A DNA stretch of 64,000 bases, taken from contig JABWBB010000001.1 in NCBI GenBank assembly GCA_013360675.1, positions 124,001 through 188,000 of the forward strand, read 5' to 3'. A program made the position numbers and the translations under genes. The stretch is from Phycisphaerales bacterium. Lineage in GTDB: Bacteria > Planctomycetota > Phycisphaerae > Phycisphaerales > UBA1924. Shown here piece by piece: positions 1 through 27,067 of the stretch; within the stretch, counting starts at the first letter, position 1, and each line of letters opens with the position of its first letter. The notes under the pieces were generated by a model. The model was given only the letters and a program-made list of their open reading frames with translations, was not told the DNA's origin and made no database searches.

Positions 1-210
1 GCCGAACTTGACGCCCATGGTCTTGGCGAGGAAGACGGCTTCCTGGCGGTTGCCGCCGGGTCGCATGCGTGTGCCCCCGCCGGCGGCCCCGCCGCGCAGC
101 GAATCGATGGCGAGCCAGCCGCGCGCGGGGGTCTGGTCGTCGTGCCACTCGACGACGATCGCGGGGGGGCGGGCGTAGAAGCGTTGATACTTGTCAAAGC
201 CGGTGGACAT
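1..210 (-). CDS. Glu/Leu/Phe/Val dehydrogenase family protein, N-terminal part (cut by window edge)
   Basis: Reading the minus strand from the ATG at 208-210 gives 70 codons that stay open to the window edge. The peptide contains GWLAIDSLRGGAAGGGTRMR followed by a Lys in FLAKTMGVKF, which resembles the substrate-binding N-terminal domain of the ELFV dehydrogenases (glutamate, leucine or phenylalanine dehydrogenases). These enzymes oxidatively deaminate amino acids with NAD(P). The Gly-rich loop and the following Lys-rich segment are the recognisable parts. The NAD-binding domain lies outside the window, so substrate specificity cannot be judged. It is the last gene seen in a minus-strand run. 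Confidence 0.7.
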   Translation of the reverse strand, partial: MSTGFDKYQRFYARPPAIVVEWHDDQTPARGWLAIDSLRGGAAGGGTRMRPGGNRQEAVFLAKTMGVKFG

Positions 211-247
211 GGGGGGCTCGCGTCGAGTGAGTGGGCGGTGCGGGAAT

Positions 248-277
248 GAAACGCCCGGCCGCGTAGGCGACCGGGCG
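248..277 (-). terminator. Probable terminator after the small basic protein gene
   Basis: On the minus strand a 7-bp GC stem (CGCCCGG at 271-277 with CCGGGCG at 252-258) is followed by TTTCATT. It lies just downstream of the small basic protein gene. The T-run is short, so this is a moderate candidate. Confidence 0.5.
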
Positions 278-307
278 CGGTGTATCACGGCACAGCGGAG
301 GGTTCGA

Positions 308-469
308 TCAGCCCTTGGGGACGAGCGTCTTGGGGATGCCCAGCGCCTTGTCCTTGGTGGGGTCAAACTTCTTGTCGGCGATCATCTTGGAGATGCGCTC
401 GGCGCGGGTCATGACGGAACGCTTGCCGGCGTGCTTGGCGGCGACTTTAAGAGAACGATCGAGGCTCAT
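308..469 (-). CDS. Small basic protein, planctomycete/verrucomicrobial type
   Basis: A 53-residue Lys/Arg-rich protein starting MSLDRSLKVAAKHAGKRSVM and ending in GIPKTLVPKG. It resembles the short basic proteins described in Chlamydiae, Verrucomicrobia and Planctomycetes, whose N-terminus (SLKxxxxxxxKRSVLxRxER) matches here as SLKVAAKHAGKRSVMTRAER. Function is unknown in that family; a nucleic-acid or ribosome-associated role is only guessed from charge. I chose the ATG at 467-469 because the longer reading frame upstream does not resemble the family and because AGAAGGG lies just before this ATG. A terminator-like hairpin follows. Confidence 0.8.
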   Translation of the reverse strand: MSLDRSLKVAAKHAGKRSVMTRAERISKMIADKKFDPTKDKALGIPKTLVPKG

Positions 470-510
470 CGCGAATCCCTTCTGGCCCGTGGGTGTGCAC
501 ACCCGCGGGG

Positions 511-1302
511 CTAGTTGAACTTTTCCCAGCCACCCCTGGAGATGTCCAGGGTTCCCTTGCGCTCGCGTCGCCACTGGTTGGCCAGGGAGGCGATCTTGCG
601 GACGAGTTCGTCGCGCTCCTGCTGGGACCTGGCCCAGTTGGTGCCGACGAACCCGGGAAGGACAAAGACCCTTCCGAGGGCGGGCTGATTGTTCGCCGAC
701 GAACGCTCGGGATCAACCCGGACAAAGAATGCCTGAATGCCGTTCTCGCCCAGGAAGGCGACCAGGCGCTCGGCCTCGGGGAGGTGGGTGTTGCCCAGGG
801 CGAGGTAGTTCAGCCCGGCCTGGCGCAGGTCGCCCCCCACGGGGGCCTTGGGGATGGCGGCGGATCCGCCCGGTCCGCCCTGGGGCTTGGCCGGGTTGGT
901 GGGGGTCGTGGAGGGTTGGCCCTTGGCATCGAGCCCCTCGGCGGGGGGCAGGTTAAGACGGAGGTAAGGCTCGAGTTCGCGCTGGGTGTCCTGCTTGCCC
1001 CATTGGAACGCCGCGATCCAGGTGATGACCACCGCGCCGATGACCAGGAACCCGGAGATGAACAACAGGTTGAGCGGGACGGCGATGGTGTGTCCGCCCA
1101 GCAGCACGCTGTACCAGCGTTCGGCGGGCTGGAGCGACTGGGTCGATGATGGAGCGGGCTTGAGCTCAACCCGAAGGACGGGCTTCTCGGCGCGGGGTGT
1201 GTGGGCGGCGTGGGGGGCGGACTCGACGGTGGGCGAGCGATCGCCGGCGCGGTTGCCGCGCAGGAGATCGAAGAGCGGGGTCGTGTGTCGGCCGCCGGGC
1301 AT
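511..1302 (-). CDS. Single-pass membrane protein of unknown function, possibly SPOR-like
   Basis: A 263-residue protein starting MPGGRHTTPLFDLLRGNRAG. The PLFDLLR opening is followed by a Pro/Ala-rich cytoplasmic stretch, one hydrophobic helix (LNLLFISGFLVIGAVVITWI, about residues 85-105), a low-complexity Pro/Gly linker and a C-terminal domain of about 110 residues with LNYLALGNT and FLGENGIQAFFVRVD. This arrangement (short cytosolic N-terminus, one TM, linker, small compact domain) recalls SPOR proteins that bind septal peptidoglycan, but no decisive motif is seen. It is divergent from nuoI with only 49 bp between the starts. There is no Shine-Dalgarno; a -10-like TACGAT lies 8 bp before the ATG. 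Confidence 0.65.
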   Translation of the reverse strand: MPGGRHTTPLFDLLRGNRAGDRSPTVESAPHAAHTPRAEKPVLRVELKPAPSSTQSLQPAERWYSVLLGGHTIAVPLNLLFISGFLVIGAVVITWIAAFQWGKQDTQRELEPYLRLNLPPAEGLDAKGQPSTTPTNPAKPQGGPGGSAAIPKAPVGGDLRQAGLNYLALGNTHLPEAERLVAFLGENGIQAFFVRVDPERSSANNQPALGRVFVLPGFVGTNWARSQQERDELVRKIASLANQWRRERKGTLDISRGGWEKFN

Positions 1303-18953: not shown

Positions 18954-19847
18954 ATGCGTCTTTTCATTTCCAGCGTTGCGGCGTTGACGATCGCCGCGGG
19001 GGCCAATGCTCAGGTGCTCGACGGCCAACTCGACGCGGTGTATGGCGCTCCCTTGAGCGTGCAGAACACGCAGACGGAGTTTGGCAACTCGAACTTGGGC
19101 GTGGCCAACTGGGCCAACGGGTCCGAGTTGAACGCGGTCTACTGCCGCTCCGACGCCAACAACCTGTACCTGATGTTCACGGGCAACCTCGAGTCCAACT
19201 GGAACAAGTTCGAGTTGTTCCTCGATACGCGCAGCGGCGGGCAGAACCAGCTGCGCGGCGACAACCCCAACGTCGATTTCAACGGGCTCAACCGCATGGG
19301 TAACGACGGTTCGGGCAACGGGCTGCGCTTTGACGCGGGCTTCGAGGCCGATTACTTCATCACCGTCACCGGCGGCGATGTGGGCGGCGGGAACTGGAAC
19401 TTCTTCGCCAACTACGCCGAGATCCTCACCGGCGGCGGAGGCTCGGGCCAGTTCCTGGGCGGCGCTGGTACCGGCGGCACGATCGTCGGCGGCAACGGGA
19501 TTTCGATCGCGCTCAACAACAGCAACACCGCGGGCGTGGGCGGCGGCAACGGGCTCGACAACGGGCTCAACGGCGCGCCGATCTTCGGCATTGAGATGTG
19601 CATTCCCCTCGCCGCCATCGGCAACCCGAGCATCGCGGGTATGAAGGGCGTGGCGTTCATCAACGGCGGCGGGCACGACTACATGTCGAACCAGGTGCTC
19701 GGTGGCCTTGGCGGCATGGGCAACCTCGCCGAGCCGCGGAACGTGAACTTCGCGAACATCGCCGGGGACCAGTTCTTCCGGATCCCCTCGCCGGGCTCGC
19801 TGGCCCTGCTCGGGCTGGGCGCGCTGGTGGCGCGTCGGCGTCGCTGA
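18954..19847 (+). CDS. Secreted protein with PEP-CTERM-like C-terminal sorting tail
   Basis: 297 residues. A Sec signal peptide (MRLFISSVAALTIAAGANAQ, cleavage after residue 19) is followed by a Gly/Asn-rich domain with GSELNAVYCRSDANNLYLMF, GQNQLRGDNPNVDFNGLNRM and LNNSNTAGVGGG. The C-terminus, SPGSLALLGLGALVARRRR, is a PEP-CTERM-like tail: a short Pro motif, a hydrophobic helix and terminal Arg residues. Such tails are thought to be cut by an exosortase. The same domain recurs, repeated and rearranged, in the protein encoded at 20658-22772. GGAGAG precedes the ATG by 5 bp, and a strong terminator follows the stop. Function is unknown. Confidence 0.85.
   Translation: MRLFISSVAALTIAAGANAQVLDGQLDAVYGAPLSVQNTQTEFGNSNLGVANWANGSELNAVYCRSDANNLYLMFTGNLESNWNKFELFLDTRSGGQNQLRGDNPNVDFNGLNRMGNDGSGNGLRFDAGFEADYFITVTGGDVGGGNWNFFANYAEILTGGGGSGQFLGGAGTGGTIVGGNGISIALNNSNTAGVGGGNGLDNGLNGAPIFGIEMCIPLAAIGNPSIAGMKGVAFINGGGHDYMSNQVLGGLGGMGNLAEPRNVNFANIAGDQFFRIPSPGSLALLGLGALVARRRR
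19257..19300 (+). repeat. 44-bp perfect inverted repeat, copy 1
   Basis: This segment inside the PEP-CTERM-like gene is identical, base for base, to the reverse complement of 22018-22061 in the neighbouring gene. It encodes the shared GDNPNVDFNGLNRMG segment. It could support inversion of the 2.7 kb between the copies. Confidence 0.9.
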
Positions 19848-20492: not shown

Positions 20493-20569
20493 ATTGCCTC
20501 TTGCCTCTTACCTCTTGCGTCTTGCCTATAGCCTCATAGCCCATTGCCCATTGCCCATTGCCCATTGCC
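20493..20569. repeat. Degenerate 7-bp tandem repeat, 11 units
   Basis: Eleven consecutive heptamers can be read without a gap: ATTGCCT, CTTGCCT, CTTACCT, CTTGCGT, CTTGCCT, ATAGCCT, CATAGCC and then four identical CATTGCC. The units drift from CTTGCCT to CATTGCC along the array. The reverse complement of the last unit, GGCAATG, recurs at 27558-27585. Heptanucleotide arrays of this type are known from cyanobacteria. Confidence 0.85.
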
Positions 20570-20580
20570 ATCATTAAAGC

Positions 20581-20609
20581 AAAACCCCCGGACCAAGGGG
20601 TCCGGGGGC
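20581..20609 (-). terminator. Rho-independent terminator after the dockerin-tailed protein gene
   Basis: On the minus strand CCCCCGGACC pairs with GGTCCGGGGG around CCTT, followed by TTTTGCTTT. It lies 48 bp after the stop codon at 20658. Confidence 0.9.
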
Positions 20610-20657
20610 TGGGTGAAGTCTGTTGAGATGGAGCCGGGTCTGGCGACCCGCGACGGC

Positions 20658-22772
20658 TTAGCAGCCGCCGTTGTTCCAGAGTTCGAAGAACATGGCGACG
20701 TCGGCGTCGTCGGGCGTGCCGCCCGAGCCGTTGGCATCGGAGCATTCATCGCCGCTGTTCCAGGCATCGAAGAAGGCGGCGACGTCGGCGTCGTCGGGCG
20801 TGCCGCCCGAGCCGTTGTAGTCGGCGATGCAGCCGCCACTGCTCCAGGGGCAGGCGGGCCCGCCGCTGGTGGGGATGATGACGAACTGGGTGAGGGGGTC
20901 GGTGGTGAAGTCGATGAGTGTGGGCTCGCCGAGGCTGGGGGCGTAGGGGTCAACGCCGGGGCTGGTGAGCCCGCCGATGACCTGGTTGGAGACGAAGCTG
21001 TGGCCCTGGGCGTTGATGAAACCGGCGAGCTTGATGGGGCTGGTGCCGTCCCAGCCGAGTTCGGAGAGGCGCACGCGGATCTCGATGCCGGTCTGGACGT
21101 TGGCGGCGTCGGCGACGTTGGTGGAGGGGACGCCCTCGACGCCGGCGACGTTGTTGTTGTCGATCGAGACGTGGATCAGGTCGGGGATGAGGGTGTTGGG
21201 GTCGTTGCCGGTGGCGCGGGGGCCGGCGTCGGTGTTGATGGGGTTGGCGGAGGTGAAGTCCTGAATGGTGGCGAAGGTGCCCGGGAAGTCGATGGGGTTG
21301 TTCGAGGCCTTGGCCCCGCCGTCGAAGGCGGAGTAATCCATGACAAAGCCGGAGATCTCGAAGCGCCCGTCGGTGCGGAGGATGCAGGCGTTGGCGTAGT
21401 TGTCGACGGGGAATGCGCCGTTGGTGATGGAGAGGAAGTAGTCGGCGGTAAAGCCCTCGTCGAACTTGAGGCCGTTGCCCGCGCCTTCGGTGCCGTTGCC
21501 GCCGGCACCCATGCGGTTGAGCCCGTCGAACTCGACGTCGGGGTTCTCGTTGAGGCTGGCGTAGCCGAGGAGTTGGTTCTGGCCCTCGCTGGCGTTGACG
21601 TCGAAGAAGAGGTCGAGTTTCTGGAAGTTGGTTTCGAGGTTGCCCGTGATGAGAATGTAGAGGGAGTCGTTGGCGGTATCGGCATGGGCGTAGACGGCGT
21701 CGATCTCCGAGCCGCGTGACACGTCGGGGTGGGGGGTCGAAAGGCCCACGGGTGCGCCGGGCACGCCGGCGGTGTTGCTGTTGAGGATGAAGGCGCGGAT
21801 GTCGGGAGCGCCGGCCTGAAGGGTGAGCGTGCCTCCGATGGGATAGGGTTCGGCCGCGGTGCCGACGTACGTACCGAAGCCCGCGCCACCGGTGAGCAGT
21901 TCGGAGTAGTTGACGAACATGGCGTGGTTGCTGCCGGTCCAGCCGTTGGTGATGGCGATCCAGTAATCGGGGCTGAATGCGGCGTCGAACTTCAGGCCGT
22001 TGCCCGACCCGCTGTCGCCCATGCGGTTGAGCCCGTTGAAATCGACGTTGGGGTTGTCGCCACGGAGCTGGTTCTGGCCCTGGGCCGGGAGTGAATCGAA
22101 GAAAAGGGAGAGTTTGTTGTAGTTGGTTTCGAGGTTGCCGGCGACGAGGAGGTAGAGGATGTCGTCGGTGGTGTCGGCGGGGGTGTTGTTGTCGTGGACG
22201 ACGGCAAAGACCTGGTCGATCTCGCTGCCGTTGGCGCTGACGGCGTTGCCGGAGTTGGCGTTGCCAAAGCCGGTGTAGTTGCCCTGGATGAACTTAGCGG
22301 CGCCGTAGGAGGACTCGTACGCGCCGTCGATGACGGGGGCGGGGCCGGTGATGCGGGCGAGCTGCAGATCGATGAACTGATTGCCGGGGAAGGCTGGGGC
22401 GCTGAAGTCGACGTTGCGCGGGTCGGCGAGGTTGGGGTTGTTGGTGGGGAGGACGCCGGTGATCTGGTTGGAGAAGTAGTCGTATGAGCCGCTGGAGATG
22501 ACGCCGAAGAGGGCGACGTTGGAAATCGTCGGATTGCCCAGGGCCGAGAGGGGGATGGCGAACTCGAGGCCGGTGAAGACGGCCTGGGGGTTGCCGGCGG
22601 CGCCGATAAGACCAGCCGTGTTGTCGCCGAACGAGGTGGGCTGGTTCTGGACAAAGAGAGGAGTGGTGTAGAAGGCCTCATCGCCGACGCGGGTGCCGTT
22701 GACCGTGGGTTGGGCGATGGCGTGTCCGGCGAAGGCCACGAGGGCGGCCGCTGAAACTGGGAACATCTTCAT
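20658..22772 (-). CDS. Large secreted mosaic protein with dockerin-like Gly-Cys C-terminus
   Basis: 704 residues from the ATG at 22770-22772, preceded by CGGAG. A Sec signal (MKMFPVSAAALVAFAGHAIA) is followed by three rearranged copies of the domain found once in the protein at 18954. Copy 1 has the beginning (PLFVQNQPTSFGDN) joined directly to the end (FAIPLSALGNP), so the middle is missing. Copies 2 and 3 have the core (GSEIDQVFAV, GDNPNVDFNGLNRMG; GSEIDAVYAH, NPDVEFDGLNRMG), and only copy 3 keeps the tail (GFINAQGHSFVSNQVIGGL). The last 58 residues are two dockerin-like loops, DYNGSGGTPDDADVAAFF and DANGSGGTPDDADVAMFF, ending in GGC. Cell-surface location is inferred; the ligand is unknown. 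Confidence 0.85.
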   Translation of the reverse strand: MKMFPVSAAALVAFAGHAIAQPTVNGTRVGDEAFYTTPLFVQNQPTSFGDNTAGLIGAAGNPQAVFTGLEFAIPLSALGNPTISNVALFGVISSGSYDYFSNQITGVLPTNNPNLADPRNVDFSAPAFPGNQFIDLQLARITGPAPVIDGAYESSYGAAKFIQGNYTGFGNANSGNAVSANGSEIDQVFAVVHDNNTPADTTDDILYLLVAGNLETNYNKLSLFFDSLPAQGQNQLRGDNPNVDFNGLNRMGDSGSGNGLKFDAAFSPDYWIAITNGWTGSNHAMFVNYSELLTGGAGFGTYVGTAAEPYPIGGTLTLQAGAPDIRAFILNSNTAGVPGAPVGLSTPHPDVSRGSEIDAVYAHADTANDSLYILITGNLETNFQKLDLFFDVNASEGQNQLLGYASLNENPDVEFDGLNRMGAGGNGTEGAGNGLKFDEGFTADYFLSITNGAFPVDNYANACILRTDGRFEISGFVMDYSAFDGGAKASNNPIDFPGTFATIQDFTSANPINTDAGPRATGNDPNTLIPDLIHVSIDNNNVAGVEGVPSTNVADAANVQTGIEIRVRLSELGWDGTSPIKLAGFINAQGHSFVSNQVIGGLTSPGVDPYAPSLGEPTLIDFTTDPLTQFVIIPTSGGPACPWSSGGCIADYNGSGGTPDDADVAAFFDAWNSGDECSDANGSGGTPDDADVAMFFELWNNGGC
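22018..22061 (-). repeat. 44-bp perfect inverted repeat, copy 2
   Basis: Reverse complement of 19257-19300 with no mismatch. It lies in the second domain copy of the mosaic protein and encodes the same GDNPNVDFNGLNRMG segment. Confidence 0.9.
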
Positions 22773-23103: not shown

Positions 23104-24024
<921 letters not shown>

Positions 24025-24105
24025 TTTGGGTGGGGTGCGGTGCGGGTTTTCGGACCGCGCAGGGCCAGTGAGTCTTGCGCTGCGTCTCAAAGGTGCGGGT
24101 TGTTC

Positions 24106-24134
24106 TTGGCGGGGCCGGACGGGCTCGCTAAGGT
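24106..24134 (+). promoter_or_regulatory. Weak promoter candidate for the amylase gene
   Basis: TTGGCG at 24106-24111, 17 bp, TAAGGT at 24129-24134. Spacing is ideal but the -10 box matches only the TAnnnT positions. Confidence 0.3.
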
Positions 24135-24178
24135 GGGTCATTGGCCCTCGCCGGGCCGATGCGAGCGGGAGAGACGGC

Positions 24179-27067
24179 ATGAAACGTGATGCGTGGATGC
24201 GGCGTGCGACGGCGCTGGTGCTGGCGGCTGGGCTGGCCGGTATGTGCACGAACGCCAGTGGTCAGGGCTGGGAAGAGAACCCGCCCGTCATGATGCAATG
24301 GTTTGAGGTGCGCTGGGCGGACATGGAGCGGCGTATGCCGGACTGGTTCGCCGCCGGGTATGGGTCGGTGTGGCTGCCGCCCGTGTCGCGCGGGTATTTG
24401 AACCCGACCGATCTTGACCAGAACTCGAAATCGGCGGGGTATGACGTCTTTGATCGGTTCCATCTGGGCAAGCCCGGCGCGGAGACGGCGTATGGCACCG
24501 AGGCTTCGTTCGACGCGGTGGTGGAAGAGTTCCACCGAGCCAACGGGCTGGTGCACATTGACATCGTGCTGAATCACAACGCCGCCCGTCAGACCGGGAC
24601 GACGTTCATGCTCAATGGCGGGTACCCGGGGTTCTGGATGGCCCCGCCCAGCCCGATGCGCAACAAGTTGCCCACCGATGACTGGGGCGATTTCCACGCG
24701 GGGGTCTCGGGCGGGTATTACCAATCGGAGGACCCGCAAGGGGCGCGGTATTGCCTGCTTCGTGGCGACCTGGTCGCGCTGATCGACATCGATCATGCGC
24801 GCAGCAACCTGTTCATCCGCCAGCCGGTGAGCGCGGGGAATCCGCAGAACATCCCGGCGGGGACGTACTTCAATCGGCCCGACGCGTCCAACGCGCGGTT
24901 TTATACGGATCAGGCGCTGGGCACGACGGTGGTGAACAACCCGGGGATGTGGTACGCGGGCCCGCTCAACACGGGGATCTTCGCGCCGCCCTGCGATGTC
25001 GCCGCCCGCAACGAGCCGCCCACGCCCATCACGCTGGGGCGGTTCAACGAGGTTGACCCGATGGCGGGCGACCCGGTGCCCGAGACCGCGACGGGCTATC
25101 TGCTGCGCTGGGTGCAGTGGATGCTCGACGTGAAGAAGGTCGACGGCCTGCGTGTTGACGCGATCAAGCACATGCCCTCGTGGTTCTACGACACCTACTA
25201 CGACGCGGTGGTCTTTGAGCGTCGACGCACACCCGACGGACGGATGGTCACACCCTTCTCGTTTGGCGAGTGCGTCGAGGGGAATGACTTCACCTTCGAT
25301 CGGTACATCCGCAAGCCCAATGGGCGCACGACGGGGCGGAACACGGCGGGCGACGCATTCGGCAACCGCGACGCGCTCGACCTGGGCGGGGCCGGCGCGC
25401 TGCGCGACCTCATCTCGAACCAGTCGTGGGCCAGTTGGGGCAATGCGCAAGGGGCGCACCTGGACAATACCGACGACGGGTTCAACAACGGCTCGATCGG
25501 CGTCAATCACATCTTCAGCCACGACAATGGCTCGGCGGGGAATGGCGGGTCCGCACCACCGAACCCGTCGCTGCGCGATCAGGGTTGGTTTGCACATGCG
25601 TACCTGGTGATGCGCACGGGGCAGGCGAAGTTGTATCACAACGGGCGGGGTGTGAACCGGTCCAGCGGATTCTGGCCGCGCCAGGGCTTGCCGCTCGCGT
25701 TGGGGCACGACCCGGTGACGAATGCGGCGAACCCGGTGATCACGGACCTGGTGCGGCTGTCGAACTGGCTGGGTCGCGGGGAGTACACGCCGCGCTGGAC
25801 GGATGACTTCGTGCACATCTTCGAGCGTCGCACACCGATGGGCGGCGGGGCGTACTCGGGGAACGTGCTGGTGGGGTGCAACCGCAGTTACGCGGGGCTG
25901 GGGATCACCAGTTACGACCAGCGCACGTTCAACACGAGTTTCCCGGCGGGGACCCGGCTGATCGAGATGACGGGCAACGCCGCCCGTGCGGATGTCGACC
26001 CGTCGGCGCAGATCCCCGAGGTGATCGTGGTGGGGGCCGGCGGCAGCGTGACGATCCGCGTGCCCCGCAATCAGAACCTCGGCGGGACGGATCACCACCG
26101 CGGTTTTGTGATCTACGCCCCGGCGATTCCTGACGGCACGCTGAGCTTCACCAACGTGGCGACATCGCTGGCGCCCGACCCGGCGAGCGGGCCCAACGCC
26201 AAGCCGCCCTTCGCACGCCGCCAGAGCACGATCCCTGTGATCCGCGCGGACAGTTTCGAGATTCAACTGACGACGGTGAATGGAGACCCCGGGGCGGGGA
26301 GCAACACCAACGCCGATGACAACGCCCTCTTCCGCATCGACGCGGGGTTCGAGGATTGGAACAACAACGCGGGCGTGGACATCCCGCACACCAATGCGGT
26401 GGTGCCGGGGTATGAGAACTTCGTGACGCAGCGGTCGCCGCTGGCGGGGACATCGAACACCAACGGCGTGTATCGCCAGGTGATCGACGCGACGCGGTTG
26501 TCGGAGGGGATGCATTACATCAGCGTGGCGGCGTTCCGGGCCCGCGGCCCGGGCGAGGCGCCGTTGTTCAGGGAGTTCCGCCAGGCGATCTACATCGATC
26601 GTGCGCTGCCGCAGGCCTCGCTGGTGGGGCCGCTGTCGCTGCCGTTGGTCACGTCGGAGCGGTTCACGGCACGGGCCGCGGATCGGACGGTGCAGAAGGT
26701 GCACATGGTGCTGAACCCGCCCTCGGTGGGGAATCCCTTGACGCTGGCGAGTGATTCGAATCTGGCGACGCAGACGGATCGCCTGGAATGGCAGCGGACA
26801 CTCAACGGGCTTGTGCAGGGGACGAACACGGTGCTGGTGATCGCCCTTGAAGAGGGCGGGCGCGGGGCGTATGAGTTGGCGATCGTGCAGGTCGGGTGCG
26901 TGGCGGACTTCAACAACAGCGGGGGCGTGCCCGATGACGCCGACGTCGCCGCGTTCTTTGCGGCGTGGAACGAGGGGCAACCCATCGCGGATATCAACCA
27001 GAGCGGGGGCGTTCCCGACGACGCGGACGTGGTGATGTTCTTTGAACTGTGGAACGCGGGGTGCTGA
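24179..27067 (+). CDS. Secreted GH13 alpha-amylase with dockerin-like Gly-Cys tail
   Basis: 962 residues from the ATG at 24179 (GGGAG upstream). A Sec signal (ALVLAAGLAGMCTNASG) precedes a GH13 catalytic domain with all four conserved regions: DIVLNHN (128-134), GLRVDAIKH with the nucleophile Asp327, GECVEG with the acid/base Glu364 and FSHDN with Asp449. It should hydrolyse alpha-1,4-glucans such as starch or glycogen. Residues of roughly 600-900 form further domains (a beta-rich amylase C-domain and an Ig-like or carbohydrate-associated part) that I cannot name. The last 58 residues, with DFNNSGGVPDDADVAAFF and DINQSGGVPDDADVVMFF and ending AGC, match the tail of the protein at 20658. Probable cell-surface or secreted polymer degradation. 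Confidence 0.92.
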   Translation: MKRDAWMRRATALVLAAGLAGMCTNASGQGWEENPPVMMQWFEVRWADMERRMPDWFAAGYGSVWLPPVSRGYLNPTDLDQNSKSAGYDVFDRFHLGKPGAETAYGTEASFDAVVEEFHRANGLVHIDIVLNHNAARQTGTTFMLNGGYPGFWMAPPSPMRNKLPTDDWGDFHAGVSGGYYQSEDPQGARYCLLRGDLVALIDIDHARSNLFIRQPVSAGNPQNIPAGTYFNRPDASNARFYTDQALGTTVVNNPGMWYAGPLNTGIFAPPCDVAARNEPPTPITLGRFNEVDPMAGDPVPETATGYLLRWVQWMLDVKKVDGLRVDAIKHMPSWFYDTYYDAVVFERRRTPDGRMVTPFSFGECVEGNDFTFDRYIRKPNGRTTGRNTAGDAFGNRDALDLGGAGALRDLISNQSWASWGNAQGAHLDNTDDGFNNGSIGVNHIFSHDNGSAGNGGSAPPNPSLRDQGWFAHAYLVMRTGQAKLYHNGRGVNRSSGFWPRQGLPLALGHDPVTNAANPVITDLVRLSNWLGRGEYTPRWTDDFVHIFERRTPMGGGAYSGNVLVGCNRSYAGLGITSYDQRTFNTSFPAGTRLIEMTGNAARADVDPSAQIPEVIVVGAGGSVTIRVPRNQNLGGTDHHRGFVIYAPAIPDGTLSFTNVATSLAPDPASGPNAKPPFARRQSTIPVIRADSFEIQLTTVNGDPGAGSNTNADDNALFRIDAGFEDWNNNAGVDIPHTNAVVPGYENFVTQRSPLAGTSNTNGVYRQVIDATRLSEGMHYISVAAFRARGPGEAPLFREFRQAIYIDRALPQASLVGPLSLPLVTSERFTARAADRTVQKVHMVLNPPSVGNPLTLASDSNLATQTDRLEWQRTLNGLVQGTNTVLVIALEEGGRGAYELAIVQVGCVADFNNSGGVPDDADVAAFFAAWNEGQPIADINQSGGVPDDADVVMFFELWNAGC

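Follow-up and report, generated by a model that had tools for sequence, protein, structure and literature searches.

Introduction

The closest structural counterpart of the protein domain analysed here is the starch-binding module CBM74 of the Ruminococcus bromii protein Sas6 (PDB 7uww, 7uwu and 7uwv), which is the best structural match of the single form of the domain. Both are associated with GH13 alpha-amylases, but the domain shows no sequence-profile match to CBM74. The CBM9-like beta-sandwiches (PDB 1i82 and 7nwn, and the glucodextranase domain 1ug9) display the same general sandwich (Z 8.1-8.7), whereas the present family lacks a Pfam CBM9_1 match as well as hhalign support against one CBM9 sequence. 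At the level of protein sorting, the GC-type dockerin domain-anchored proteins (NF041540) carry tails that resemble those of the protein described below and of a neighbouring amylase, although the former scores below the curated cut-off of that model.

The arrangement of the domains also has a described background. A survey of 48,551 domain-insertion events reports nested patterns that reach six levels in RNA polymerase (PMC13114784). The interruption of one domain by another, as found in that survey, is hence well known; what differs here is that the insert would derive from the same family as its host and be circularly permuted, a combination that is not described in the accessible part of that source.

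The protein in question is encoded in a stretch of 64,000 nucleotides (hereafter the window) from a Phycisphaerales bacterium (assembly GCA_013360675.1, contig JABWBB010000001.1, positions 124,001 to 188,000). A preliminary description of the window, made from the letters alone, had read the gene as a mosaic of three partial copies of the domain of a neighbouring protein, joined by recombination between repeats and indicative of an actively reshaped surface protein family. Our analysis points to an old and stable design with two complete domains of one family, one of them probably nested in the other.

Results

The mosaic protein adds up to two whole domains

The mosaic protein (P0001, 704 residues) is encoded on the minus strand at 20658-22772, with the reading frame at 20661-22772, the stop at 20658 and a GGAG motif read in the sequence 11 nt 5' of the ATG. 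It has a signal peptide, as judged from the sequence, the putatively nested domains and a dockerin_GC-like tail, and from the signal peptide and the sorting-like tail it looks exported. Just beyond its stop, at 20545-20612, lies a G+C-rich inverted repeat that runs into T-rich sequence when read on the minus strand; it is likely an intrinsic terminator and is adjoined by short CCCATTG tandem repeats. The neighbouring homologue (P0002, 297 residues, plus strand, 18954-19847, with its residues encoded at 18954-19844) contains a single domain and ends in a PEP-CTERM-like tail.

A domain profile of 256 positions was built from 11 single-domain homologues (Planctomycetota and Armatimonadota MAGs and genomes). 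In the following, A denotes the beginning of the domain, C its core and B its end, such that an ordinary single-domain protein reads A-C-B. Five stretches of P0001 align to the profile, namely h7-34, h173-254, h1-179, h32-140 and h162-254, and they resolve into the order A1-B1-A2-C2-C3-B3, all on the minus strand. A1 (22617-22712, residues 21-52) covers h7-34 and ends in FGDN; B1 (22356-22595, residues 60-139) covers h173-254; A2 (22245-22334, residues 147-176) and C2 (21756-22244, residues 177-339) jointly cover h1-179; C3 (21360-21725, residues 350-471) covers h32-140; and B3 (20883-21185, residues 530-630) covers h162-254. A lineage-specific stretch of low pLDDT (21186-21359, residues 472-529) separates C3 from B3. 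In single-domain relatives from another family of the order (f3; loci L043, L048, L049 and L037), an extra 90-130 residues lie between C and B, at about the same place as this variable stretch.

When compared with P0002 over 500 shuffles, the pieces scored z 8.3 (A1 to A), 19.8 (B1), 34 (A2C2 to C), 28 (C3) and 14 (B3), while all mismatched pairs stayed near 0. As such, much of the preliminary description holds: pieces of the neighbour's domain do occur in the 704-residue protein, the first part does fuse the domain's beginning to its end, the second does run from NSNTAGV straight into another core, the normal tail is found in the final part alone, and the domain fits no named model of Pfam or NCBIfam. 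The sum drawn from these pieces does not hold, as A, C and B pieces each occur twice and the protein is better read, from its sequence, as two complete, interleaved domains than as three partial copies.

The arrangement is conserved rather than reshaped

Among 163 genomes of the host's family, 129 encode a relative, near full-length in about 110, and of 400 genomes sampled from the whole order only members of this Phycisphaerales family showed the full-length form. The collection compared holds one genome per species. We read about 120 mosaic proteins (loci L023-L025, L041, L042 and L056-L175) and retained 104 distinct two-domain orthologues for statistics. An alignment that included core-plus-tail fragments was discarded because it misaligned. 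Every complete two-domain orthologue that was read, including 104/104 of the retained set, shows the order A-B-A-C-C-B. In none of the 104 were the protein's own C2 and C3 closer to each other than to the nearest orthologue, the mean identity between own C2 and C3 being 37.6%, compared with 71.6% and 77.3% to the nearest-orthologue C2 and C3, respectively. A tree in which the C3 cores all form one clade was not rejected (p-AU 0.88).

Since the order is the same in all 104 orthologues and no within-protein homogenisation is seen, the proposal of an actively reshaped family fails, and the mosaic arrangement is an old, retained and stable design rather than a shuffled gene. The joints do fall at matching points, at constant domain coordinates and in predicted loops, but the boundary loops are alike only to chance level: they score 19.6, and randomly paired windows 17.7 (sd 4.8), without a significant difference, so that recombination at matching boundary motifs lacks support. 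An actively recombining repeat protein was rejected, given the absent homogenisation and the constant order of the two-domain forms; five longer forms carry one extra domain.

These longer relatives (L164, L165, L166, L172 and L173) read A-B-[A-C-B]-A-C-C-B, with the extra whole domain located exactly at the B1/A2 join and the pieces again balanced (3A, 3B and 3C). Separately, a 1636-residue protein (L162:1285-6192, minus strand) has an ordinary A-C-B at its front and an A-B-A-C-C-B unit, presumably nested, about 600 residues further on.

Co-divergence pairs distant pieces

The six pieces were aligned separately, and their pairwise distance matrices were compared over 100 proteins (half-sample sd about 0.06). 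The partial correlations sort the pieces into {A1, C3, B3} and {B1, A2, C2}. A1 correlates with C3 (0.28) and B3 (0.24), which lie 300 to 500 residues away, rather than with its chain neighbour B1 (0.09), and shows 0.01 with A2 and -0.12 with C2. B1 in turn correlates with C2 (0.40) and A2 (0.28), compared with 0.11 for B3, and C3 with B3 (0.41). Adjacency in the chain does not explain this pairing, because A1-B1 and C2-C3 are adjacent and yet only weakly correlated. Of the four possible assignments of A and B pieces to cores, the nested one (A1+C3+B3 / A2+C2+B1) was best in 1000/1000 half-samples with raw as well as partial correlations, and it was still best after thinning to 49 dissimilar proteins. 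Tandem A-C-B-A-C-B proteins were sought as a positive control, and the about six full-length ones found were too few for this purpose.

A short strand at the core/end boundary changes its place

The order B1-A2-C2 is a rotation of the A-C-B of single domains with the natural ends joined, as defines a circular permutation. At the boundary between core and end lies a short strand ending in ILNSNTAGV (S strand; 21756-21794), and in the predicted single domain of P0002 the break points of the joints fall into coil that flanks a short strand. In 95 of the 104 orthologues, including P0001, the S strand is found in linker 2, following C2, and in the other nine in linker 1, preceding B1; no protein (0/104) has it in both or in neither. 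In this count L145 and L174, which were missed by the pattern, were assigned by eye. The position of the S strand switched about four times on the tree, which is to be expected if it represents a strand of the inner domain that could come either first or last. The rotation and the extra domain at the B1/A2 join speak for a circular permutation, and the co-divergence points, if indirectly, to B1, A2 and C2 as one unit.

The linkers also differ in their cysteines. Both linkers have one in 35 proteins, neither in 67, and linker 2 alone in two, which come from sister genomes. The association gives a Fisher p of 1e-20 if phylogeny is disregarded, although it reflects just 3-4 changes on the tree and is not significant in that light. 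Paired cysteines of this kind are suggestive, as nesting would be expected to bring the two linkers alongside each other.

Structure models resemble CBM74

The AlphaFold2 model of P0002 (pLDDT 78, pTM 0.83) predicts that one repeat forms a CBM74-like sandwich. Its top VIA-align match was the CBM74 of Sas6 (Z 12.3 over 220 residues, rmsd 5.4, 18% identity), clearly ahead of CBM9 and the glucodextranase domain (8.7), against an immunoglobulin background of about 7. The model of P0001, made from an alignment of a few homologues, is poor (pLDDT 56, pTM 0.48). Its best VIA match was again CBM74 (7uwv; Z 10.3, 216 residues), with a model range of 1..616, and both models align to nearly the same stretch of CBM74. 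Going by the end points, which are what the alignment reports, the matching unit starts in A1 and ends in B3 and would fit an outer domain composed of A1, C3 and B3. Immunoglobulin chains, which made up the other matches of the P0001 model (Z 5.6-6.5), were taken to reflect the common sandwich arrangement.

Foldseek alone returned no significant match for either model. At the sequence level, a profile of 13 homologues found no CBM74 chain among the PDB sequences at E up to 10, and Pfam CBM9_1 gave no match, either to the 13 members compared with it (E up to 10) or in the host genome (E 1e-10); the lack of support from hhalign against CBM9 is uninformative, as the CBM9 side was a single sequence. 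Without a sequence-level link to either family the domain is assigned to neither, and on the basis of the models it is best described as CBM74/CBM9-like in fold, a shared fold not showing membership.

The tail and the neighbourhood suggest a role at the surface

The tail of P0001 (20667-20831, residues 648-702) matches dockerin_GC (NF041540) at E 8.7e-5 with 22.8 bits, under the curated cut-off of 29, while that of the nearby amylase scores above it. Tails of this type, about 60 residues long, are encoded at some 54 places in the 2.9 Mb genome, two of these, apart from P0001 itself, being 91-96% identical to that of P0001, and from this distribution they look like a tag used across the genome for sorting or anchoring.

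The GH13 alpha-amylase, whose tail is of this type too (24002-27067, plus strand), starts about 1.2 kb from the mosaic gene, and the two are linked across the family: they lie within 15 kb of each other in 39 of the 44 genomes that have both on one contig and far apart in five, a count that leaves out 57 genomes with the two genes on different contigs. In one relative (locus L178), another GH13 enzyme, one of GH31, and an ABC transporter of the sugar type along with its binding protein are encoded in the interval between them. In the window, this interval contains a gene whose prepilin-type product matches DUF1559 weakly (23104-24024), and L177 and L178 also have a similar gene close to the mosaic one. 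Taken together, the CBM74/CBM9-like fold and the neighbourhood of alpha-amylase, GH31 and sugar-transporter genes suggest, at roughly even odds, that P0001 could hold alpha-glucan at the cell surface near these enzymes.

Discussion

From our point of view, P0001 is most probably an exported surface protein with two complete beta-sandwich domains of the same family, one nested in the other, a reading to which we assign a probability of about 0.8, and its likeliest job would be to hold alpha-glucan. We infer the nesting in three dimensions indirectly, from the co-divergence of the pieces, the independent sign of the exclusive placement of the S strand, the extra domain of the longer relatives and the VIA range. 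To our knowledge, no CBM74 nested in itself has been reported.

In the proposed architecture, the outer domain would consist of A1, C3 and B3, and the inner domain of B1, A2 and C2, circularly permuted and placed in the loop of the outer domain that follows A1. The natural ends of the inner domain would be fused, the end of B1 to the start of A2, such that its last piece comes first in the chain, and its new ends would be placed in the loop next to the S strand. Both crossings of the chain, from A1 to B1 and from C2 to C3, would then run in parallel and couple both domains rigidly, and in some lineages the one cysteine per crossing is probably bonded to its counterpart as a disulfide. The longer relatives would accommodate one extra whole A-C-B between B1 and A2. 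The arrangement presumably had one origin, or few, at an early stage of the family and was retained thereafter. The simplest route to it would be through a tandem array, by unequal exchange with the loss of one C and one B-A, or through a B-A-C segment inserted into the loop that follows A.

Two other accounts would do without nesting. The pieces and joints are indeed as the preliminary description had them, and DNA repeats between the two cores of P0001 (77-81% identity) also speak for three partial copies generated by ongoing recombination in a fast-changing surface protein. Against this stand the common order of the orthologues, the absence of homogenisation, the two-domain stoichiometry and the chance-level likeness of the boundary loops, so that this account is largely refuted and we consider it very improbable. 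One could further imagine three self-sufficient small folds in series, with A1-B1 as a shortened sandwich, A2-C2 as a truncated one and C3-B3 as another, as the order in the sequence would allow and as the weak P0001 model is by itself unable to exclude. Yet A1 co-diverges with C3/B3 and not with B1, and B1 with C2/A2; the S strand is exclusive to one linker, the VIA range spans 1..616, and each piece retains conserved core motifs. We therefore hold this arrangement to be unlikely, if a little less so than recombination.

A different doubt concerns the ligand, since the domains could be nested as proposed and bind another polysaccharide, or serve a structural role at the surface. CBM9-like folds are binders of varied sugars, and single-domain members also occur in lineages outside the amylase-linkage survey. 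The amylase linkage, found in 39 of the 44 genomes in which both genes share a contig, and the alpha-glucan type of the locus speak against it, and we would give this variant a serious, somewhat less than even chance. Returning to the nested architecture, its broadest formulation, in which a permuted domain was inserted into its own paralogue, became fixed throughout the family, has a break point that later slid over one strand in some lineages and can be expanded to a third domain, and in which the family represents an unnamed alpha-glucan-binding one and a rare natural series, appears to us evenly balanced between right and wrong.

Self-nesting combined with circular permutation makes for a hard annotation case, as profile tools yield scattered fragments in which a reader sees a mosaic. 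The hundred or so orthologues of this family, the shift of their permutation point and the expanded form offer natural test material for the origin, folding and retention of such topologies. If the link to alpha-glucan is true, these proteins would constitute a new surface starch-binding component of the polysaccharide loci of Planctomycetota, and if the self-insertion reading is true, the family would trace the emergence and evolution of self-nested domains in a natural series.
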